This document shows positions 5,204 through 23,870 of a DNA stretch of 24,716 nucleotides, one piece after another; the first letter of the stretch is position 1; the number at the start of each line of letters is the position of its first letter. The position numbers and the translations under genes were made by a program. The notes beneath the pieces were generated by a model that made no database searches, was not told where the DNA came from, and was given only the letters and a program-made list of their open reading frames with translations. Source of the stretch: a virus; the IMG/VR virus record IMGVR_UViG_3300043436_000661, positions 1-24,716 of that record, one strand, 5' to 3'.

Positions 5204-5713
5204 TTATGCAAGTAATCCTGCAATGATTGTAGGGTCAACTTCGTAAGCTAAGTTCTCGTTTTCTGCGATGAATGTAACAGAATATTTTGAACCGTCTGCT
5301 TTTGCTGTTCCTGAACCCTCAGCAGTTGCTGAAAGTTGAGCATAAGGGAAGTACCAAAATTTACCGTTTGCATCTTTAACGATGATAGCTAAGTCTCTTT
5401 GTCCCTCTGAAAGGATTTTGATAGCCTTAGATTTTGAAGCCTCACGTCTGTGGAACATTAAAGTAATTGTAGCTGTAACGAATGAAGAACCGTTAGCAAA
5501 GTCTACTGCTGATTCTTCGGTAAAATTACCTGTGTTACGTCTAAATTCAAATACTTCGTATGGTTCTGTGACTGTTTGAGCGTCAACCATGTAAGCAGTT
5601 TGGTCAATTGTTGGTATTCCTACGTTATCCATGTCATTGATATAGATAGCTGTAATCCCTCCGATGTTATTATCACACCCTTTTGTGATTGCTGTAAGTG
5701 TTGTACAAGACAT
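5204..5713 (-). CDS. Major tail tube protein (probable)
   Basis: The 169-residue product begins MSCTTLTAITKGCDNNIGGI and contains the tube-like run YEVFEFRRNTGNFTEESAV (about 52-70), a beta-rich middle (SSFVTATITLMFHRREASKS) and a C-terminal strand region (YSVTFIAENENLAYEVDP). The length and beta content fit siphovirus tail tube proteins, which stack as hexameric rings around the tape measure. The gene lies between the major capsid gene and the portal and is isolated by a strong terminator on each side, as expected for a highly expressed structural protein. The assignment rests on pattern and position. A head decoration protein is the main alternative. Confidence 0.72.
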   Translation of the reverse strand: MSCTTLTAITKGCDNNIGGITAIYINDMDNVGIPTIDQTAYMVDAQTVTEPYEVFEFRRNTGNFTEESAVDFANGSSFVTATITLMFHRREASKSKAIKILSEGQRDLAIIVKDANGKFWYFPYAQLSATAEGSGTAKADGSKYSVTFIAENENLAYEVDPTIIAGLLA

Positions 5714-6702: not shown

Positions 6703-7674
6703 TTATTTTTTAGAAAATGCGTCTCTAAACGCGTTAAATTTTTCGTGAGCTGATAATTTAGTTTCTTTTAATTCCTCTTCGATAGGCTCAACTTCCACCT
6801 CTAAAGAATTTTTTAATTCTGCAATTACTTGCAACAATTCGTTAACTTTTTCATCTAACAAAGGTGTAACGATAGCAAGGATAGCTTCAGCGTCTGCTGT
6901 TGGGTCGACTGCCATTTCAACTTCTTCAGTTGCGACTTCTTCCTCAACAACTTCTTCCGTTGCCATTTCTACATCTTCTGTTACTTCTTCTTCGACTACT
7001 TCAGTTTCCATTACAACCTCTTCGGTTGGTGCATCTAATACCTCGATAACTTCTCCGCCTTTTACAACGTAGATTTTACCTTCGATTAAGTGCTCTCCAT
7101 CTGGTAACTTCATACTATATTGATTATTTAATTCCGTCTTTTGTTCGTTCAATTTCATACCTAAGAAACCTTCAATCGAAAATCCTACTTGGTTACTCTT
7201 TACAAGTTCGTTGTAGTAATCTTCGTCAGTTACTTGAGCTGTTAACATCAAAGTACCTTTTGGTACGTCAATTCCGTACGCTTTCGCTTTGTCGTTTTTA
7301 GGGTCTTGAACTATCCACGCTTCCAATACATAAGCAGGGACTTTATTTTCCGCATCATGTTCGATGTTAAAAATATCTTTGTTAGATAAGTTTGCCATAA
7401 ACTTAGCGTGTATCTTTTCAATCTCTTCGGCTGTAAATGAAACATAGTACTCTTCGCCCTCGTCGTTTCTGTAAATTTCCATAGGAATCATAGCAGGTGC
7501 AACGATACGCATTTTAACCTCGTCAGCGAAGTACATTTGTTCGTGTGAATTGAACGCTACTCCTTTAACTTTAACCGCAGGACGTGACGTAAAAGCAATC
7601 ATTTCGATTCCTAAGTCCTCGCCCTCGCTATATTCAGGGTCAATAGTAATTTTGTAAGTAGGCAATTTATCCAT
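6703..7674 (-). CDS. XkdF-like prohead protease with scaffold-like C-terminal extension
   Basis: The first 200 residues match the XkdF/Peptidase_S78_2 group. They include IAFTSRPAVKVKGVAFN (about 26-42), NIEHDAENKVPAYVLEAWIV with likely catalytic H106, and NQVGFSIEGFL with likely nucleophile S166. Residues about 217-255 are a repetitive acidic run of E, V and T. Residues about 260-300 look like a coiled coil (ILAIVTPLLDEKVNELLQVI), and a basic tail ends FRDAFSKK. I read the C-terminal third as a fused scaffold that is removed during head maturation. It is directly upstream of the capsid gene. The ATG at 7674 is preceded by ACATAATAAGT, one of four related start-adjacent motifs, and lies back to back with the rightward chaperone pair. 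Confidence 0.82.
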   Translation of the reverse strand: MDKLPTYKITIDPEYSEGEDLGIEMIAFTSRPAVKVKGVAFNSHEQMYFADEVKMRIVAPAMIPMEIYRNDEGEEYYVSFTAEEIEKIHAKFMANLSNKDIFNIEHDAENKVPAYVLEAWIVQDPKNDKAKAYGIDVPKGTLMLTAQVTDEDYYNELVKSNQVGFSIEGFLGMKLNEQKTELNNQYSMKLPDGEHLIEGKIYVVKGGEVIEVLDAPTEEVVMETEVVEEEVTEDVEMATEEVVEEEVATEEVEMAVDPTADAEAILAIVTPLLDEKVNELLQVIAELKNSLEVEVEPIEEELKETKLSAHEKFNAFRDAFSKK

Positions 7675-7685
7675 ACTTATTATGT
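7675..7685 (-). promoter_or_regulatory. Copy of the ACATTATAAGT start-adjacent motif
   Basis: ACATAATAAGT lies directly before the ATG at 7674 (minus strand) and differs at one base from the copies at 11920 and 17879. The protease gene is the first leftward gene after the inverted chaperone pair, so a local start of transcription may be needed here. Confidence 0.4.
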
Positions 7686-7713
7686 AGATATAAAATTATT
7701 TGTTCAAAAATTG

Positions 7714-7721
7714 TATATTTG
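7714..7721 (+). promoter_or_regulatory. Candidate -7 element TATATTTG for the rightward gene pair
   Basis: TATATTTG matches TAnnTTTG exactly and ends 15 bases before the ATG at 7737. No TTG lies at the usual 17-23 bases upstream (TTTG at 7699-7702 is only 11 bases away), so the promoter would be of the -7-only type or need an activator. The pair has no other visible source of rightward transcription. Confidence 0.45.
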
Positions 7722-7736
7722 TTAAAAAATTAGTAT

Positions 7737-8279
7737 ATGGTAACAATTGGAAAAAATGAAATCCCTAACAAATCAACTGAGTTGAGCGTTAAGCAATTTA
7801 CAAAAGTCAATGAAATTTTAAGAAGTGAAAACGAACCAATTGAAAAATGGTATCAAATCTTTACTTACTTAGGTGCGGACGAAAGCGACATTAACGACTT
7901 AGAATTTGACGAGTTCAAAGAGGTTGTTCGTCTTTTTAACGATAGCGAAAGTAAGGACTTAGAAATTCAACGCACTATTGAAATTGACGGATATACTTAC
8001 GAAGCGTATAAGGAAGAGTTTAAGGTATCTGTAAAAGACTTAAAAGCAATTGAAAAGCTAATCGCTAAAAATCCTAATTCGTACATCGCTGAAATGGTTG
8101 CAGTGTTGTATAAGCGTACCGACTTAACAGAAAAAGAACACTACGAACCTGCACACATCAAACACAAAACTACTTTGTTCGCTGACCAAAAGGCATCGTT
8201 TGCTTTACCTATCATTTGGCACGTTGCTAAGAAAATGACGAATGAAATAGAAAAAGCTGATGATGAAAGCGTGGCATGA
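7737..8279 (+). CDS. Probable tail assembly chaperone, first component
   Basis: This 180-residue protein is acidic and helical, with no membrane segment. The part VKQFTKVNEIL (about 19-29), followed by EKWYQIFTYLGADESDINDL and FDEFKEVVRLF, resembles the small chaperone encoded just ahead of tape-measure genes in many phages (lambda gpG-like). Such proteins coat the unfolded tape measure while the tail tube polymerises. The gene and its partner are the only genes on the plus strand, inside an otherwise leftward operon. The last 20 bases overlap the next gene, whose start (ATGATG at 8260) is in another frame. The function is inferred from pattern, pairing and nearby tail genes. Confidence 0.6.
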   Translation: MVTIGKNEIPNKSTELSVKQFTKVNEILRSENEPIEKWYQIFTYLGADESDINDLEFDEFKEVVRLFNDSESKDLEIQRTIEIDGYTYEAYKEEFKVSVKDLKAIEKLIAKNPNSYIAEMVAVLYKRTDLTEKEHYEPAHIKHKTTLFADQKASFALPIIWHVAKKMTNEIEKADDESVA

Positions 8280-8982
8280 CGTAACAGTCGAAACATTCAT
8301 GGAGTTAAGGGGGTTGGAAACAATCCCTTTCGATTCTCCATTTGATTTAGAACTTGAAAGGCTTTCAATCTTAACCGATACCGACATCGAAGAGTTGCAA
8401 AATTTAGACCTATCCGAGTTTAGCGCATTGACTAAAGAGTACGCTTGGGTAAAATCAGCACCTGCAAAGAACTTCAAACAAGAAATAAATGGGTTTCACT
8501 TCAAAGAATGGTACACGCTTGGGGAGTTTATCGACTTAAACCATCTATTTGAAAACGAAGCGCAAAACTTTGACAAGATTTTAAGCATTTTATTCCGAGT
8601 TTTTAAACAAGACGAATGGGGAAACCGTGTTTTTGAGCCTTTACAGTTTGACTTAGAACAACGCAAACACGAATTTAAAGACGTTCTAATCAACGATTGC
8701 TTTGGTGGTGTGGTTTTCTTTGTTGAGTTTAGGGATAACTTCTTAAAAGTGTACGAAAATCTATTTAATCCTGTTGTTGAAAGTGACGAATTAGACGAAA
8801 ACGAACTTGACCAAGAGGACATAAAAGCCGAAGAAGAGGAAAAGAAACTATCTAAGTTTAGCTGGGAACGTTTAATCTTTGATTTGAGCGGTGGGGATTT
8901 GACAAAGGTAGACCAACTTACTGACCTACCTATTATCTTAGTGTTTAATATGCTTTCAATGAAGCAAACTTACGGAATTTAA
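8260..8982 (+). CDS. Probable tail assembly chaperone, second component
   Basis: The 240-residue product overlaps the preceding gene by 20 bases in a different frame (+1 relative to it). The C-terminal 45 residues, with FSWERLIFDLSGGDLTKVDQ (about 200-219) and a final LPIILVFNMLSM, follow a W-x(7)-GGD-x-x-K pattern that I associate with the C-terminal part of tail assembly chaperones. An acidic linker (about 172-198, rich in D and E) precedes it. This two-part design recalls lambda gpG/gpGT, although here the second frame has its own ATGATG start, so translational coupling is simpler than frameshifting. Its stop shares the palindrome TTAA (8979-8982) with the stop of the opposing gene, and no terminator separates them. 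Confidence 0.58.
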   Translation: MMKAWHDVTVETFMELRGLETIPFDSPFDLELERLSILTDTDIEELQNLDLSEFSALTKEYAWVKSAPAKNFKQEINGFHFKEWYTLGEFIDLNHLFENEAQNFDKILSILFRVFKQDEWGNRVFEPLQFDLEQRKHEFKDVLINDCFGGVVFFVEFRDNFLKVYENLFNPVVESDELDENELDQEDIKAEEEEKKLSKFSWERLIFDLSGGDLTKVDQLTDLPIILVFNMLSMKQTYGI

Positions 8983-9419
8983 AAGAACGGTGTTTGTGGT
9001 GCTTTTGGTAAATTCGGATAAGGACTATCAATCCAATTGAATTGAATGCTAACTTTCGGGTTGTTAAGTATTCGAGCCATTTCCAAAAGAGGGTATTTCT
9101 TAAACTGCCATGCGATATATTCCTGAGTTACTTCAGCAAGAATAGCTTGTACATCGCTACGTCTTAACCAATTATCTGTAATCGAGTAAGGCGGTATCAT
9201 TTGTTTGCCATCTCTTTCTGTTCCCTCATCTAAAAATAAATAGTAAAACATAGCGTTAATCGTCATGTTAATCGTGTTTAATTCGTCCCCAGTCATCGCT
9301 GAAATTCTAATCGAATCATATAACGCACCATCAGCATACAACCCAAGCGATAAAATCTCTTGCTGTAATGCTCTCGCTAACTTGTTTCTTGTAGCGTATT
9401 GAACTTTAAAATTTGCCAT
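8979..9419 (-). CDS. Tail completion/neck protein, HK97 gp10-like
   Basis: The 146-residue protein has the general plan of HK97 gp10-type tail completion proteins. A basic helical N-terminus (YATRNKLARALQQEIL) is followed by LYDSIRISA (about 33-41), a strand pair (INMTINAMFYYLFLDEG) and IPPYSITDNWL. In other phages these proteins finish the head-proximal end of the tail or join it to the neck. It follows a tail-terminator-like gene by 2 bases in a leftward operon. Its stop overlaps that of the opposing chaperone gene by 4 bases, so the two transcripts converge with no spacer. The family match is moderate; that it is a virion gene is likely. Confidence 0.6.
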   Translation of the reverse strand: MANFKVQYATRNKLARALQQEILSLGLYADGALYDSIRISAMTGDELNTINMTINAMFYYLFLDEGTERDGKQMIPPYSITDNWLRRSDVQAILAEVTQEYIAWQFKKYPLLEMARILNNPKVSIQFNWIDSPYPNLPKAPQTPFF

Positions 9420-9421
9420 GT

Positions 9422-9865
9422 TTAATCTCCTATCTCAAATGGTATGTCCTCAACACAGTATTGGTCAACTTCAAACGTGATACTCATTTGCCACCCCGCT
9501 ACGTAATCTAAATCAAAATTATTGACGGGGATTAATGTAGGTGCTTGAGCGTCTATGCTTAAATCTGTCCCCTGACTAAAGTACAAATATAAGTCATTTA
9601 AAATTAAGTTCGTATCACTTAAAATAGTGTTTATATTAGCGCGGTCTTTTTGTATAATATCCACACAGTAAATATCCATAGCAAAGATATTTGTATTCTC
9701 GCCCATCGTTTGACTAATAGGAACGTAAAAAACAAGCGGATACTTTTCATTTAAGGTGCTAAAGTTTGGCATCTGTTCTCTGAACTCCCCCGCGTTTTTC
9801 TTAATCTGTAAATGTTGTTGACAAAACACGTCAATCGCATTTAATAGTTTTATGTAGCTTGTCAT
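9422..9865 (-). CDS. Probable tail terminator/minor tail protein
   Basis: This 147-residue protein has a helical N-terminus (YIKLLNAIDVFCQQHLQI), a beta-strand region around YPLVFYVPISQTM (about 40-52), AMDIYCVDIIQKDRANINTI, and a final strand WQMSITFEVDQYC. The alternating strand-helix plan and small size fit tail terminator proteins, which cap tube growth, but I cannot confirm the family. It lies between the tape measure gene (4-base ATGA overlap) and a gp10-like gene (2-base gap), which supports a role in tail completion. Confidence 0.55.
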   Translation of the reverse strand: MTSYIKLLNAIDVFCQQHLQIKKNAGEFREQMPNFSTLNEKYPLVFYVPISQTMGENTNIFAMDIYCVDIIQKDRANINTILSDTNLILNDLYLYFSQGTDLSIDAQAPTLIPVNNFDLDYVAGWQMSITFEVDQYCVEDIPFEIGD

Positions 9866-11919
9866 AGTGTAGAACCTAAATCAATTATTTTCATTTTATT
9901 TTGTGTCGCTGTAATTTCAGTCTCACTTACAACCGCCTGAACTGTTACCGTTTGATTTGATTGCATTGATTGACCTGTTAAATTGTTCGCGTTGTTTCCT
10001 TGTCCAAACATATTAATTGACGGTGTAGCTACCGAAGCACTTGAGGCACTTGCTGAAGTACCGCCACCACCACCCGAAGCCGATGCACTCGGGTTGCTTA
10101 ACAATGCTTTAGCCTTAGCTACGTTCGTTAAGATTTGAACGATACCCGAAGCATATTGTGCTATTCCTGCACCACCTGCTGTTACTGCATTTAATGGATT
10201 TGCTTGAGACATTGCAACGAGTGAACTAATAGCCTTTGCAGTATCGATTGCGATTTGAACTAAAGCAGTAGCCTTTTGGAATTTCTCGAGTTTCTTTTGG
10301 TCATTTATGAATATGTTTCCAAGTTGAGAAAGTCCCGAGTTAATATCACTTGCAAATTGAATCTTTGCGTCACGTTCTGCCTGTGCATCTGCTATCTTTT
10401 TAAGAGCGTATTTCTTTTGTATTTCGGCTGTCTCTTTTCCGATTTGCTCTTCGATTGCTGTTGTATCTTTTTCATACAACTTAGCCTCTTCGATTAACTT
10501 AGCATATTTAGCACGTACTGCATTTACTTCTTGTTCTTCAGCACTCAACTGAGCATTAGAAATGGTTTGTTGTTGTGTGTTGTAACGCTCTAAAAATTCG
10601 TTGTATGCTTCTATCTCTTTTTCTTGTTGTTCTTTTGTTAAAGCGTCTAACTTTTCTTGCTTAGCTTTTTCGATGTTTCCAAGTTCTAAAGCTTGTTGTG
10701 CTTCAAGTTGTTTTTTAATAGCTGTTCTTTCAGTATCTAAATATTTCTCATTTGCTAAAGTTTCTGCAATAGCACGCTTATACTTCAAATTTATAGTAGC
10801 AATTTCTTTAGCTTCGCCCTCTGCCATTATAGCTATTTTACCGTCTTCAAGTAAACGAGCTACTTCTAATCTATTTTTTGCGTCTTCCTTTTCTTCTTGT
10901 TTTCTTTTTTCTCTTGCTGATTTACCCGCTTCAAGACTTTTCTTATGCGCTTCGTCCTCAGTTTTTTGAGCATCTACAACGTGTTTCTTTTTAATGTACT
11001 GTATTTCATTGTTTGAGGTAGTCATTAAAGTACGTTGTTCTTTTAGTTTCGCTTTTAAATCTGCGACCTCTTTAGCGTCATAGTCTCCTGAAGCAACCAT
11101 ATTTTGGATTCGCATTTGGTAAGCCTTTGCATAAGCATAAGCAGTCGCTTTGATTAAGCGTTGTTTTTCAAGTTCTAACTTGTAAGTGCTTTTACCCTCA
11201 AGTTGAGCCATTCTTATTTCTTGGTCAATTGCTGTGATTCTTTTATCGGAAGCATCTTTGTAAGCATCTGCTTTTTTCTCTTGCGCTTGCATTGACCTTT
11301 CTGCAGCTTCTTCTTCAGCAAATGAAGTTAAGCCTAACCAATCTAAGAAATCTTTTATATTTTGAATTACTACCATAATAGCATCGCCAATAGCTCCGAA
11401 GAAATCGCCTATTGCTTTTAATACGGGTTTTAATAAACCAAGTTTAGACATCAACGCTACAATAATAGCAACAATACCCGCAATGATAGCACCTATTAAA
11501 AAAATTGGATTTGTTAAAAGTGTAGCACCAAACGAAACGAAAGCCTTTGCCATCGTTCCAACAATAGAAATCAAACCTTTCATTTGCGTCCCTATTTCTT
11601 GAGGGCTAATTGACTTTAAAGAAGTTGCAAATAATTTAGCTGAATTAGAAGCCCCGTCAAAATCTAAGTCACGTATTTGACTACCCATTAAGCCTAAAGC
11701 ATTGCTTGTACTTTCAAATTTTGAACCAGTTGAAAATACTGCTACTTGCTCGTTTGCGTCTTTTAGTCTATCGTTTAATTCCCCCGCTCTTTGTGCAAGT
11801 TGTTGCATTTGTTCGGGGTCGGTAGCACTTGCTAATTCCCCTTTTATTTCTCGTATTTCCTTTTTCAGTTGCTGTAACCCGCCTAACTTAATCGGAATTT
11901 CTATTGCTTGTTGTGCCAT
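9862..11919 (-). CDS. Tape measure protein
   Basis: At 685 residues this is a long, low-complexity helical protein. It has an N-terminal coiled-coil region (about 10-60, LQQLKKEIREIKGEL), a glycine- and isoleucine-rich hydrophobic segment (about 125-187, LIGAIIAGIVAIIVAL), then long charged coiled coils rich in K, E, A and Q (about 200-530). The end is Ala/Ser/Gly-rich and disordered, with SASASGGGGG. This is the classic plan of a siphovirus tape measure, which sets tail length and helps DNA entry. By the usual 0.15 nm per residue the tail would be roughly 100 nm. The ATG at 11919 is preceded by ACATTATAAGT, as in three other late genes. Confidence 0.92.
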   Translation of the reverse strand: MAQQAIEIPIKLGGLQQLKKEIREIKGELASATDPEQMQQLAQRAGELNDRLKDANEQVAVFSTGSKFESTSNALGLMGSQIRDLDFDGASNSAKLFATSLKSISPQEIGTQMKGLISIVGTMAKAFVSFGATLLTNPIFLIGAIIAGIVAIIVALMSKLGLLKPVLKAIGDFFGAIGDAIMVVIQNIKDFLDWLGLTSFAEEEAAERSMQAQEKKADAYKDASDKRITAIDQEIRMAQLEGKSTYKLELEKQRLIKATAYAYAKAYQMRIQNMVASGDYDAKEVADLKAKLKEQRTLMTTSNNEIQYIKKKHVVDAQKTEDEAHKKSLEAGKSAREKRKQEEKEDAKNRLEVARLLEDGKIAIMAEGEAKEIATINLKYKRAIAETLANEKYLDTERTAIKKQLEAQQALELGNIEKAKQEKLDALTKEQQEKEIEAYNEFLERYNTQQQTISNAQLSAEEQEVNAVRAKYAKLIEEAKLYEKDTTAIEEQIGKETAEIQKKYALKKIADAQAERDAKIQFASDINSGLSQLGNIFINDQKKLEKFQKATALVQIAIDTAKAISSLVAMSQANPLNAVTAGGAGIAQYASGIVQILTNVAKAKALLSNPSASASGGGGGTSASASSASVATPSINMFGQGNNANNLTGQSMQSNQTVTVQAVVSETEITATQNKMKIIDLGSTL

Positions 11920-11930
11920 ACTTATAATGT
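11920..11930 (-). promoter_or_regulatory. Copy of the ACATTATAAGT start-adjacent motif
   Basis: ACATTATAAGT lies directly before the tape measure ATG on the minus strand, identical to the copy at 17879. The gap to the upstream tail gene is 21 bases, whereas most neighbouring genes overlap. Confidence 0.45.
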
Positions 11931-16096: not shown

Positions 16097-16389
16097 GCGA
16101 ATAAGTGTTTCGGGTTGTTTGGTGTTATTGCGTTATCGAACTTAATTTCTAAGTCAGTCATAACGTCAACGTGGTAACCTTTCAAGTAAGTAGCCTCTTT
16201 AATTACTTCCATATCTTCAACTACTGCAGGAGTGTCTACTATTTTACCTATGTAAACTACTGCGTGAGTACTTTGTGCGTACGTGTTAATCTCGTTACCG
16301 TCTTTATCAGTTGTGTTAATCAAAATGCCTTTAGCTAATAAATCAGTAATGGCTGTATCGTGGTCGGTGTATATTAGTTTGTAAATCAT
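16093..16389 (-). CDS. Small conserved tail-operon protein
   Basis: A 98-residue protein with an alpha/beta look: a strand start (MIYKLIYTD), a helix (AITDLLAKGIL), central strands (AVVYIGKIV) and a C-terminal block EATYLKGYHVDVMTD followed by ITPNNPKHLF. I recall similar small proteins from tail operons of Bacteroidota phages, without a known role. Four-base overlaps with both neighbouring genes (16386-16389 and 16093-16096) tie it to the spike-like and tail proteins; a fibre chaperone or adaptor is conceivable but not shown. Confidence 0.55.
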   Translation of the reverse strand: MIYKLIYTDHDTAITDLLAKGILINTTDKDGNEINTYAQSTHAVVYIGKIVDTPAVVEDMEVIKEATYLKGYHVDVMTDLEIKFDNAITPNNPKHLFA

Positions 16390-17513
16390 ATCGTAGTAAG
16401 TTGTGCGAGTTGTGTGTTAGTTAATCGTGTTTTCCAAAGGGCAACCGTGTTTTGTTTGTTTTTACCCGTTTGAGTCCAATGTAAATCAATGTAATCCATT
16501 AAACCGCTAACAGTTCCGCTTGTATCTGTTCCTATTTGAGTGCCGTTAATATATAAAACGAAATCATTGTTTTTATATCCAAACGCTATTTTGTATCTTC
16601 CTATTGGTTGACTTGCACCCGTTTCAATTCTCGCTTGTAATGCACCGCTACCATAATAACCTACCGCAATGATTCCCGAAGTCTCACGCTGTAAAAACAC
16701 GAATGTATCAAAGGTTGCATTTTCTTTTAAAAACCATGCATTTAAATCTGTCAATTCATCAATATAAGCATCTACAAAAAACGTCCCCTCAGTTTGTCCT
16801 ATCAAAGAGCTAATACCCGTCTTACTAATTACATCAGCGTTACGTGTTACACTTGCTGAAGTAGTAGGTATGTAAGAAGTAGCGTAAGAACCTGCTTCGA
16901 GTTGTGCGCCCCAAATAGCAACACTACCCGTTCCACTTACTCCACGAATAACAAAAAAACTAACTGCTACTGAAGCTGTAAACGTAAAATCATGACGAAC
17001 CCAGCTTGAAGTGGTGGGTATTGACTGAGTGATATCAGAGCCATCAACAACCATTCTAAATTCAATAGTTGGAGTTCCGCTTAATGACTTAACGTAAATA
17101 GAAGCCGTATAAGTTCCAGCTCCTAAAGTAAGCGTTTGAAATATACGGCTTGCGCTCGTGCTTATTGTCATTGTTTCAGCATCTTGAACACCACTCGGAG
17201 AGATAGTTGTATTTGCTGTTATAGTTGTATCAATTGCTCCCCAATCACTACTATTAAACTCTTGACTTCTTAAAACTAAATTAGTTCTTTGTGGCTCAAC
17301 TAATATACTTGGACAACTTCCGTTTGTGTAGTCTAAACGTGGTACGTTACTTGCTACGCTTTGAATTAATCCGCTTGAATTAACTCTTGTTGCTGTCGTT
17401 GCTCTTGTTACGTCTAAATCGCCCGCCCCTGAACTTGGAACAACCGAATATAACTTACCCGCTTTCGTTCCGTTTGGTGTTACAACTAAAGACGCTGTAT
17501 CTAATAAACTCAT
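16386..17513 (-). CDS. Head-spike/LamG-like fibre protein, candidate receptor-binding protein
   Basis: The 375-residue product has three visible parts. The N-terminal part (about 1-80) contains RATTATRVNSSGLI and ILVEPQRTNLVLRS, typical of the attachment region of phage spike proteins. A jelly-roll-like carbohydrate-binding domain follows (about 85-225) and ends in WGAQLEAGSYATSYIPTT, a hallmark of phage head-spike fibre domains. The last part (about 236-370) looks like a LamG/concanavalin domain, with VLYINGTQIG and a final WKTRLTNTQLAQL. The protein is Ser/Thr-rich and lacks Lys-rich stretches, as expected for an exposed virion protein. Binding host or environmental glycans is the likely role; whether it sits on the tail or the head is open. 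It overlaps the repeat protein upstream by 4 bases. Confidence 0.72.
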   Translation of the reverse strand: MSLLDTASLVVTPNGTKAGKLYSVVPSSGAGDLDVTRATTATRVNSSGLIQSVASNVPRLDYTNGSCPSILVEPQRTNLVLRSQEFNSSDWGAIDTTITANTTISPSGVQDAETMTISTSASRIFQTLTLGAGTYTASIYVKSLSGTPTIEFRMVVDGSDITQSIPTTSSWVRHDFTFTASVAVSFFVIRGVSGTGSVAIWGAQLEAGSYATSYIPTTSASVTRNADVISKTGISSLIGQTEGTFFVDAYIDELTDLNAWFLKENATFDTFVFLQRETSGIIAVGYYGSGALQARIETGASQPIGRYKIAFGYKNNDFVLYINGTQIGTDTSGTVSGLMDYIDLHWTQTGKNKQNTVALWKTRLTNTQLAQLTTI

Positions 17514-17878
17514 ATTTCTAAATTATTTAATGTTTGTACTAAGCAATTTTCAGCTTCTACCGTTCCGCTATCTGTTGCTATTCGTGTTTTAAAAGTGTTA
17601 ATCAATGTCATCGTTGCGCTAATCTCAGACGCTAAAGCCTCAATCCAAGAACCGTTCACAGTTCCCGTAGCACCAAAGTCCTCAGCTAAAGCCTGAATGA
17701 AACTTTCGCCTAAGTCTACGTTTGCATCGAAGTAAGTACACAACGCTTGTTGGTAGTTTCCGTTTTCAGCTACAAGACCAAAGTGTCCCGCTATCGTTTG
17801 CCACCAATCGCCATTCGTAGTCGTTTCTCCTAACACGTTTGCAATTTCTTGCACCCAATTTTTAAAAGTGTTTTCCAT
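17510..17878 (-). CDS. Repeat protein of unknown function (five ~17-residue repeats)
   Basis: I do not recognise this 122-residue acidic protein as a named family. It is almost entirely built of five degenerate units, at residues 7-23, 24-40, 41-57, 58-76 and 77-92. The common pattern is aromatic-x-x-x-[IL]-A near the start and a Gly, often Asn-Gly, at the end. Each unit probably forms one helix and a turn. The first gene after the large terminase, it is coupled by a 4-base overlap to the spike-like gene, so it may be an oligomerising base, a chaperone for the spike, or a virion protein. The start is supported by an ACATTATAAGT motif directly before the ATG. Confidence 0.6.
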   Translation of the reverse strand: MENTFKNWVQEIANVLGETTTNGDWWQTIAGHFGLVAENGNYQQALCTYFDANVDLGESFIQALAEDFGATGTVNGSWIEALASEISATMTLINTFKTRIATDSGTVEAENCLVQTLNNLEI

Positions 17879-17889
17879 ACTTATAATGT
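17879..17889 (-). promoter_or_regulatory. Copy of the ACATTATAAGT start-adjacent motif
   Basis: ACATTATAAGT directly precedes the ATG at 17878 on the minus strand, in the 32-base gap after the terminase gene. It is identical to the copy before the tape measure. The gap also holds ATTTG, but no full TAnnTTTG promoter. Confidence 0.45.
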
Positions 17890-23101: not shown

Positions 23102-23613
23102 AACATTGCTTTTTGCTCGGGTGTTAACTCGAATTTTAATAAATCGTCTTTCTTTGCTTTGCCCTCTTTGATTGCTTGTAATGCTTTTACAAAACGCTCA
23201 TCGTTGATTGGTTGCTTTTTTGGTTCGTGTTTTACTTGCTCTCCCGAAGCGTCAGTGTCTTTGTCAGTAACTAAACCAAGCATACTTGCTAACGCATAAC
23301 GTCTGTAGTAAGTTATCCCACTACCAAAAGACTGGTAATCATTCATGCCTTTTAATGCTACGGTTGGAATCAAAGTACTGCTTTCAATCTTTTCAGCACT
23401 CTCTGAATGGAAAATAACCGTGTTTAAATAGTTTACCCCATCATGTGAGTTAATAGATTGAATAAATCCTAAACCGTGTTTTTGCAGTAACGGATTAATC
23501 ACTTTGAAAATAGCAGGTAAATCTGAATAAGAGTAACCGTACCCTTGTGTTCCTTTGTGAATTACAGGCACTTCTTGTTGGAAGTCTGCAATCGCTTTAA
23601 ATAAATGTTTCAT
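23098..23613 (-). CDS. erf: ERF-family single-strand annealing protein
   Basis: This 171-residue protein matches the ERF family of phage annealing proteins. The N-terminal part has GYSYSDLPAIFKVINPLLQK (about 26-45), and the family hallmark GSGITYYRRYALASMLGLVT (about 97-116) is followed by DKDTDASGE. These proteins form rings on single-stranded DNA and promote annealing in genome circularisation and recombination. The partner exonuclease is two genes downstream and an SSB-like protein is nearby. The last 40 residues (charged, linker-like, ending LTPEQKAML) may be an interaction tail. The start at 23613 has an ACAAACAACG leader typical of Bacteroidota. Confidence 0.9.
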   Translation of the reverse strand: MKHLFKAIADFQQEVPVIHKGTQGYGYSYSDLPAIFKVINPLLQKHGLGFIQSINSHDGVNYLNTVIFHSESAEKIESSTLIPTVALKGMNDYQSFGSGITYYRRYALASMLGLVTDKDTDASGEQVKHEPKKQPINDERFVKALQAIKEGKAKKDDLLKFELTPEQKAML

Positions 23614-23657
23614 CGTTGTTTGTTTTAATTGTTAATTGTTTGTTGAATTATTTTTTT

Positions 23658-23870
23658 TTATACTGAATAGACATGAATACTACCGTAAGGAGAAAGTGGT
23701 AATGTAAAACTATCTATATTTTCAGTAGTAAAGCAACGGTCAAATCGTTCACATATATAAACACCTACAATTTCTTCGTATTTTTTCTTAACATCACTTA
23801 TTGAAACATTCTCTAAAATTGGATTAACTTCTAAAGTGCTTACCATTTTATAATTCTTAATTGCTTTCAT
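23658..23870 (-). CDS. Hypothetical 70-aa protein, first gene of the recombination operon
   Basis: I choose the ATG at 23870 (MKAIKNYKMVSTLEVNPI); an upstream ATG at 23912 would place the start inside the promoter region. The 70 residues look like a small alpha/beta protein, with ISDVKKKYEEIVGVYICERF (about 24-43), two cysteines and a final hydrophobic strand (GSIHVYSV). No family is recognised. Its promoter and leader (23871-23928) are the twin of those before the 63-aa gene at 260. It is the first gene of the operon ending at 21034. Confidence 0.65.
   Translation of the reverse strand: MKAIKNYKMVSTLEVNPILENVSISDVKKKYEEIVGVYICERFDRCFTTENIDSFTLPLSPYGSIHVYSV

Follow-up and report, generated by a model that had tools for sequence, protein, structure and literature searches.

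A probable two-gene tail assembly chaperone encoded on the strand opposite to the virion operon in a group of environmental phages

Two overlapping genes, A and B, which are read rightward within an otherwise leftward virion operon of an environmental phage, very probably represent a real and conserved two-gene tail assembly chaperone (TAC) placed on the opposite strand. Judged by their sequences, A and B are paralogues replacing the G and GT proteins, and the usual frameshift is dispensed with. The same protein family includes more distant members that consist of a single gene with an invariant slip site.

RESULTS

Layout of the inverted gene pair

The window, that is, the whole stretch of DNA analysed (24,716 nt), is a 24.7-kb IMG/VR virus contig, whose leftward genes include those of an XkdF-type protease (PF14550), the portal, the tape measure protein (PHROG 9483; 9862-11919) and a candidate major tail protein (5204-5713). 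Its terminase gene is closest to those of Parabacteroides and Flavobacterium phages, and the host of this uncultured phage is probably a Flavobacteriia-type bacterium. The original prediction placed two rightward genes amid a wholly leftward virion operon, and the gene calls agree with this: A and B are read rightward, and all other credible genes, from 477 to 24679, leftward. Gene A (7737-8279, + strand) encodes a 180 aa probable G-like TAC protein, the short form without T domain, and gene B (8260-8982, + strand) a 240 aa probable GT-like TAC protein carrying the G and T domains in one frame. Translation of B likely starts at 8260 or at the alternative ATG at 8263 (+ strand), inside A, and the two genes overlap at 8260-8279. 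The flanks described earlier were also reproduced. A 62-nt divergent intergenic region (7675-7736) lies between A and the protease gene, the start of which is at 7674, and the stop codon of B (TAA, 8980-8982) meets that of the leftward gene 8979-9419 end to end in a shared TTAA (8979-8982). Relative to the tape measure gene, the pair is on the opposite strand at a distance of two genes. Comparison with locus L012 gave dN/dS values of ~0.03 for A and ~0.12 for B, indicating purifying selection on both, and since both are also kept in relatives, they can be regarded as real genes.

Conservation of the arrangement

For the conservation analysis 119 loci were mapped by tblastn, and both A and B were found in 110 of them. 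In all 110 contigs carrying both genes, they are opposite to the protease and MCP genes, at identities down to ~40%. The stop overlap between B and gene 8979-9419 is 3, 10 or 11 nt long in 93 of 103 loci, and A and B overlap by 11-65 nt, with the start of B inside A, in 101 of 105. The tape measure gene of distant members is found on the far side of the portal gene, with A/B still located between the protease gene and gene 8979-9419. An identical layout was found in L253 (JAIXRY010000011.1), a 29.6 kb contig of a ~0.8 Mb pond MAG from which a reliable host was not obtained. No relative was confirmed when sequenced genomes were scanned with A; because L253, which was found through its terminase, carries the A/B pair, such pattern scans miss members.

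The occurrence of the pair as a recent insertion, which would have spoken against the original prediction, was checked in the related contigs, and the inverted orientation kept in 110/110 loci rules out both this and an assembly artefact. The kept orientation, the stop overlap and the purifying selection taken together indicate that the layout is old and selected and therefore not accidental. The inversion persists wherever both genes occur in the contigs examined, which suggests that independent control of the chaperone may itself be under selection.

Two side observations concern other parts of these loci. The shift of the tape measure gene across the portal gene (L019, L023, L024, L033, L037, L045 and similar loci) is an unusual reshuffling of the virion operon, and in several shifted loci gene 9422-9865 was displaced together with the tape measure gene. 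A tail-fibre-like gene (16386-17513 in the window) shows only ~50% identity in contigs that otherwise mostly match the genes of the window at 85-99%, which suggests rapid exchange of its receptor-binding part.

Same-strand relatives carry one G gene with a slip site

A single B-like gene lying on the virion strand was detected in four more distant groups, namely L034, L060/L252, L061 with its relatives, and the isolated Nonlabens phage P12024S (L120, NC_018271) with its relatives. In these genes the frame closes after the G part, and the T part follows in the -1 frame. An in-phase T_TTT_TTT is present at the Phe-Phe position in 73/73 same-strand relatives, and the slip site consists of eight T (T8) in all 18 lineages that are <80% identical. 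The probability of T8 arising by chance, calculated from codon usage, is 5e-14, a crude estimate that takes the lineages to be independent. RNA structure 3′ of the T8 site was inconsistent (z from -2.3 to +1.7). RNA polymerase might also slip on eight consecutive T, and the sequence cannot separate the ribosomal from the transcriptional mechanism. Weaker downstream slip sites considered in L034, L060 and L061 were dropped once the point of the shift had been settled by T8 and the -1 frame homology of B. The lambda G/GT chaperone is typified by one tail-module gene that yields a short product and another extended in the -1 frame (PMC5009743).

In P12024S the two frames correspond to gp38/gp39 (23136-23830), which are annotated as hypothetical and belong to PHROGs 32199 and 38404, both of unknown function; their sequence resembles that of a G/GT chaperone made by -1 frameshifting at a T8 slip site. 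The -1 frame peptide starting from T8, FFLSFRERLRDLYPELY...KWSWYHTF, aligns with the in-frame FFVEFRDNFLKVYENLF...KFSWERLIF of B. The G/T gene of L060/L252 lies directly 5′ of the tape measure gene, and in P12024S and L061 the G gene is situated between the large terminase gene and an HK97 gp10-like gene (the Pfam match of the latter in P12024S is below the cut-off). Thus, the expectation that such a chaperone normally adjoins the tape measure gene held for L060/L252 and failed for the other gene-mapped same-strand relatives, where the TAC follows the large terminase gene.

A and B correspond to G and GT

In hhalign comparisons B was colinear with the fused GT of the relatives over 225 columns (E 8.9e-36), the alignment running straight across the shift point, and A was colinear with the G of the same-strand relatives over 163 columns (E 3.6e-11). 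A and B also aligned colinearly with each other (E 6.5e-9), more weakly than A with G. The Phe-Phe codons of B (TTC TTT, 8716-8721, + strand) occupy the slip-site position of the relatives, but the heptamer is absent. The T-domain part of B (8722-8979, + strand) extends from VEFRDNFLKVYENLF after the Phe-Phe to the C-terminal SWERLIFDL..LPIILVFNMLSMK. An HMM built from B downstream of Phe-Phe matched the -1 frame peptides of the relatives (best E 1.6e-13), and the same HMM gave no match to their 0-frame peptides (best 0.18) or to shuffled sequences. The short tail of A matched neither the 0 nor the -1 frame of the relatives. An in-phase T_TTT_TTT was found in none of 105 A genes and none of 105 B genes. 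Because A is homologous to G and B to GT, and neither contains T_TTT_TTT, A stands for G and B for GT.

The pair consequently shows the sequence features of a two-gene TAC: a homologous G domain in both proteins, a T domain in frame in B, and no slip site linking them. Of the features of the lambda-type system, a predicted frameshifted long form occurs in the same-strand relatives and not in A/B, and a same-strand site before the tape measure gene is found in L060/L252 and not in A/B.

Evidence for a probable tail chaperone

Pfam and PHROGs scans of A and B assigned no functional family and returned no model named as tail chaperone; nor did they match any toxin, antitoxin or immunity family, and thus the profile searches gave no sign of the unrelated family that would have contradicted the chaperone assignment. 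A fold search against the PDB yielded no solved-structure match. The predicted structure of A is confident (AlphaFold pLDDT 86), and its BFVD matches are phage proteins, among them gp38 of P12024S (UniProt I6R9M9, 175 aa; E 3.7e-6). The T domain of B was modelled at low confidence. Searching isolated phages by tblastn with A, B, L061 G and L060 G gave no match, and the link to P12024S was reached through the protease search together with the fold search. As no named TAC profile or solved structure was matched, the assignment to the TACs is founded on architecture, synteny and the homology with frameshifting genes. The homology to the frameshifting G/GT genes of the same-strand relatives strongly supports the earlier guess of a two-part TAC, and we are highly confident that A and B form a siphophage TAC pair, in which gpG and gpGT would be encoded as two paralogous genes.

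Expression signals around the pair

The sequence TATATTTG, a -7 box of the type TAnnTTTG (7714-7721, + strand), lies 23 nt before the ATG of A. TAnnTTTG is the -7 element of the Bacteroidota primary sigma factor. The box precedes A in 32 of 36 non-redundant loci, the nearest copy being 19-26 nt from the ATG, and on the other strand the motif occurred in only 1/36 loci. No other intergenic copy in the window closely precedes a rightward gene. The predicted own expression control of the pair is therefore borne out at the sequence level only, by this conserved promoter-like box. In one subgroup (L018, L019, L024, L043 and similar loci) an inverted repeat resembling GTTAA-N4-TTAAC, often TTTTGGTTAATTTTTAAAC, was observed 5′ of the box, ~40-60 nt before A, which could possibly be an operator or a -33 region.

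In the gap at 7675-7736, ACATAATAAGT is found on the minus strand just before the ATG of the protease gene. The consensus ACATWATAAGTATG has three exact matches, all on the minus strand (7672-7685, 11917-11930 and 17876-17889), and each of them ends in the start codon of a leftward gene, that of the protease, the tape measure protein and gene 17510-17878, respectively. With ≤2 mismatches allowed, 6 sites were found versus 1.0 expected, and ACATWATAAGTATG may possibly be a late promoter or leader signal. Since ACATAATAAGT is found again, with every consensus position matched, before the tape measure gene and gene 17510-17878, the leftward genes may be equipped with separate signals.

The absence of a terminator between the convergent transcripts was confirmed insofar as a pattern scan found no terminator-like site at the junction of B and gene 8979-9419, where the stop overlap is conserved. 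A conflict between A/B transcription and the late operon appears plausible. The start of B inside A would fit weak or coupled translation of B.

DISCUSSION

If A and B act as G and GT, A would be made in excess and would coat the tape measure protein, and B would bind the same protein by its G part and recruit the major tail protein by its T part. The A:B ratio would then come from transcription and translation, with A made first and B starting inside A, and not from slippage. Being inverted and preceded by a promoter-like box, the pair may have its dosage regulated independently of the leftward virion operon. Transcription of that operon would have to pass A/B in antisense before it arrives at the head genes, unless a separate promoter serves the latter. 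The inversion itself might even set the G:GT ratio, as leftward late transcription would meet the 3′-end of B first, and converging polymerases or antisense RNA would truncate B more frequently than A. We consider this idea quite improbable; if it were true, the inversion would lead to a large excess of A over B and would be a transcriptional replacement for translational frameshifting. The simplest story for the origin of the two genes would be that a gene was duplicated and each copy was then fixed in one of the two frames. In the phylogenetic tree A forms one group (support 100/100) and B another (98/98); the two are separate in the best tree, and their union is neither rejected nor supported by the AU test (p 0.155).

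Other explanations of the pair were also weighed. It is conceivable that only B is a working chaperone, and A, though descended from a G gene, has acquired a new job as the chaperone of another tail or neck protein or as a regulator of B. The far divergence of A (branch length 2.08), its lack of a recognisable G tail and its position outside the operon under its own promoter-like box would fit such a change. However, a phage without A as G would miss the free short form, which is kept by all frameshifting relatives, and A stands beside B in every complete locus under strong purifying selection; we regard this explanation as unlikely, albeit less so than the other alternatives. The opposite strand, the promoter-like box and the small size and overlap of the two genes would also suit an accessory pair unrelated to tails, such as a toxin–antitoxin, immunity or other cargo module inserted opposite to the virion operon. 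The homology of A/B to the frameshifting G/GT genes that relatives carry in their tail modules, their presence in every related phage and not sporadically, and the failure of Pfam and PHROGs to match them with any family of this kind make this very unlikely.

Slightly less probable still is a degenerate frameshift system, in which B would continue to slip at another site. Other in-phase X_XXY_YYZ heptamers are indeed scattered in A and B, but each type occurs in at most 36/105 A and 23/105 B genes, no A or B gene has an in-phase T_TTT_TTT, and B already reads the T domain in frame in the loci examined. A pair of in-frame paralogues acting as G and GT is the reading that we prefer.

Tail chaperone frameshifting is among the most widespread phage recoding events. 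Within the family described here, some members use one gene with an invariant slip site and others two in-frame paralogues, and therefore the setting of the G:GT ratio without slippage becomes directly testable within it. The results also provide a likely function for the unannotated gp38/gp39 of P12024S, for two functionally uncharacterised PHROGs and for genes on hundreds of environmental contigs. In the openly licensed literature searched, we found no report of an inverted two-gene TAC, of a T8 slip site in this Bacteroidota-phage TAC family, or of the slip-site and two-gene solutions inside one protein family.

The principle of the two-gene TAC is already known from T4-like phages and Bacillus phage 0305φ8-36. 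According to the available description, T4-like phages have a short TAC gene and a fused long gene without frameshift (Vladimirov et al., 2022, via PMC10885494). Likened by this described layout, A/B similarly comprise a short gene and a long gene that fuses the short and downstream parts; they differ from it, as far as described, in that the pair is inverted and relatives of the same protein family still frameshift. The gp143/gp144 of 0305φ8-36 form a two-gene tail chaperonin whose paralogous domains recapitulate G and GT without frameshift, and the long form is thought to be weakly translated (PMC2147016). In contrast to A/B, this phage belongs to another lineage, its pair is one gene from the tape measure gene, and no frameshifting relatives of the family were reported (PMC2147016). 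The TAC ORFs of Microbacterium cluster EA phages are likewise apparently expressed without evident frameshift; the portion of the account considered here presents two separate ORFs and describes neither paralogues nor inversion (PMC7302621).

The lambda gpG/gpGT system (PMC5009743) resembles A/B in having a common G part, a T part added to one protein and a locus in the tail module. The lambda proteins are made by a programmed -1 frameshift, and the same-strand relatives of A/B likewise use a -1 slip site. Unlike in lambda, A and B are separate genes with no slip site, lie on the opposite strand away from the tape measure gene, and have no detectable sequence match to named TAC families. The closest counterpart in an isolated phage is gp38/gp39 of P12024S, with the same G fold and T domain, where gp38 is the equivalent of A and of the N-terminal part of B, and gp39 that of the T part of B. 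In contrast to A/B, they consist of a single gene plus an ORF entered in the -1 frame at T_TTT_TTT; they share the strand of the virion genes and follow directly on the large terminase gene.
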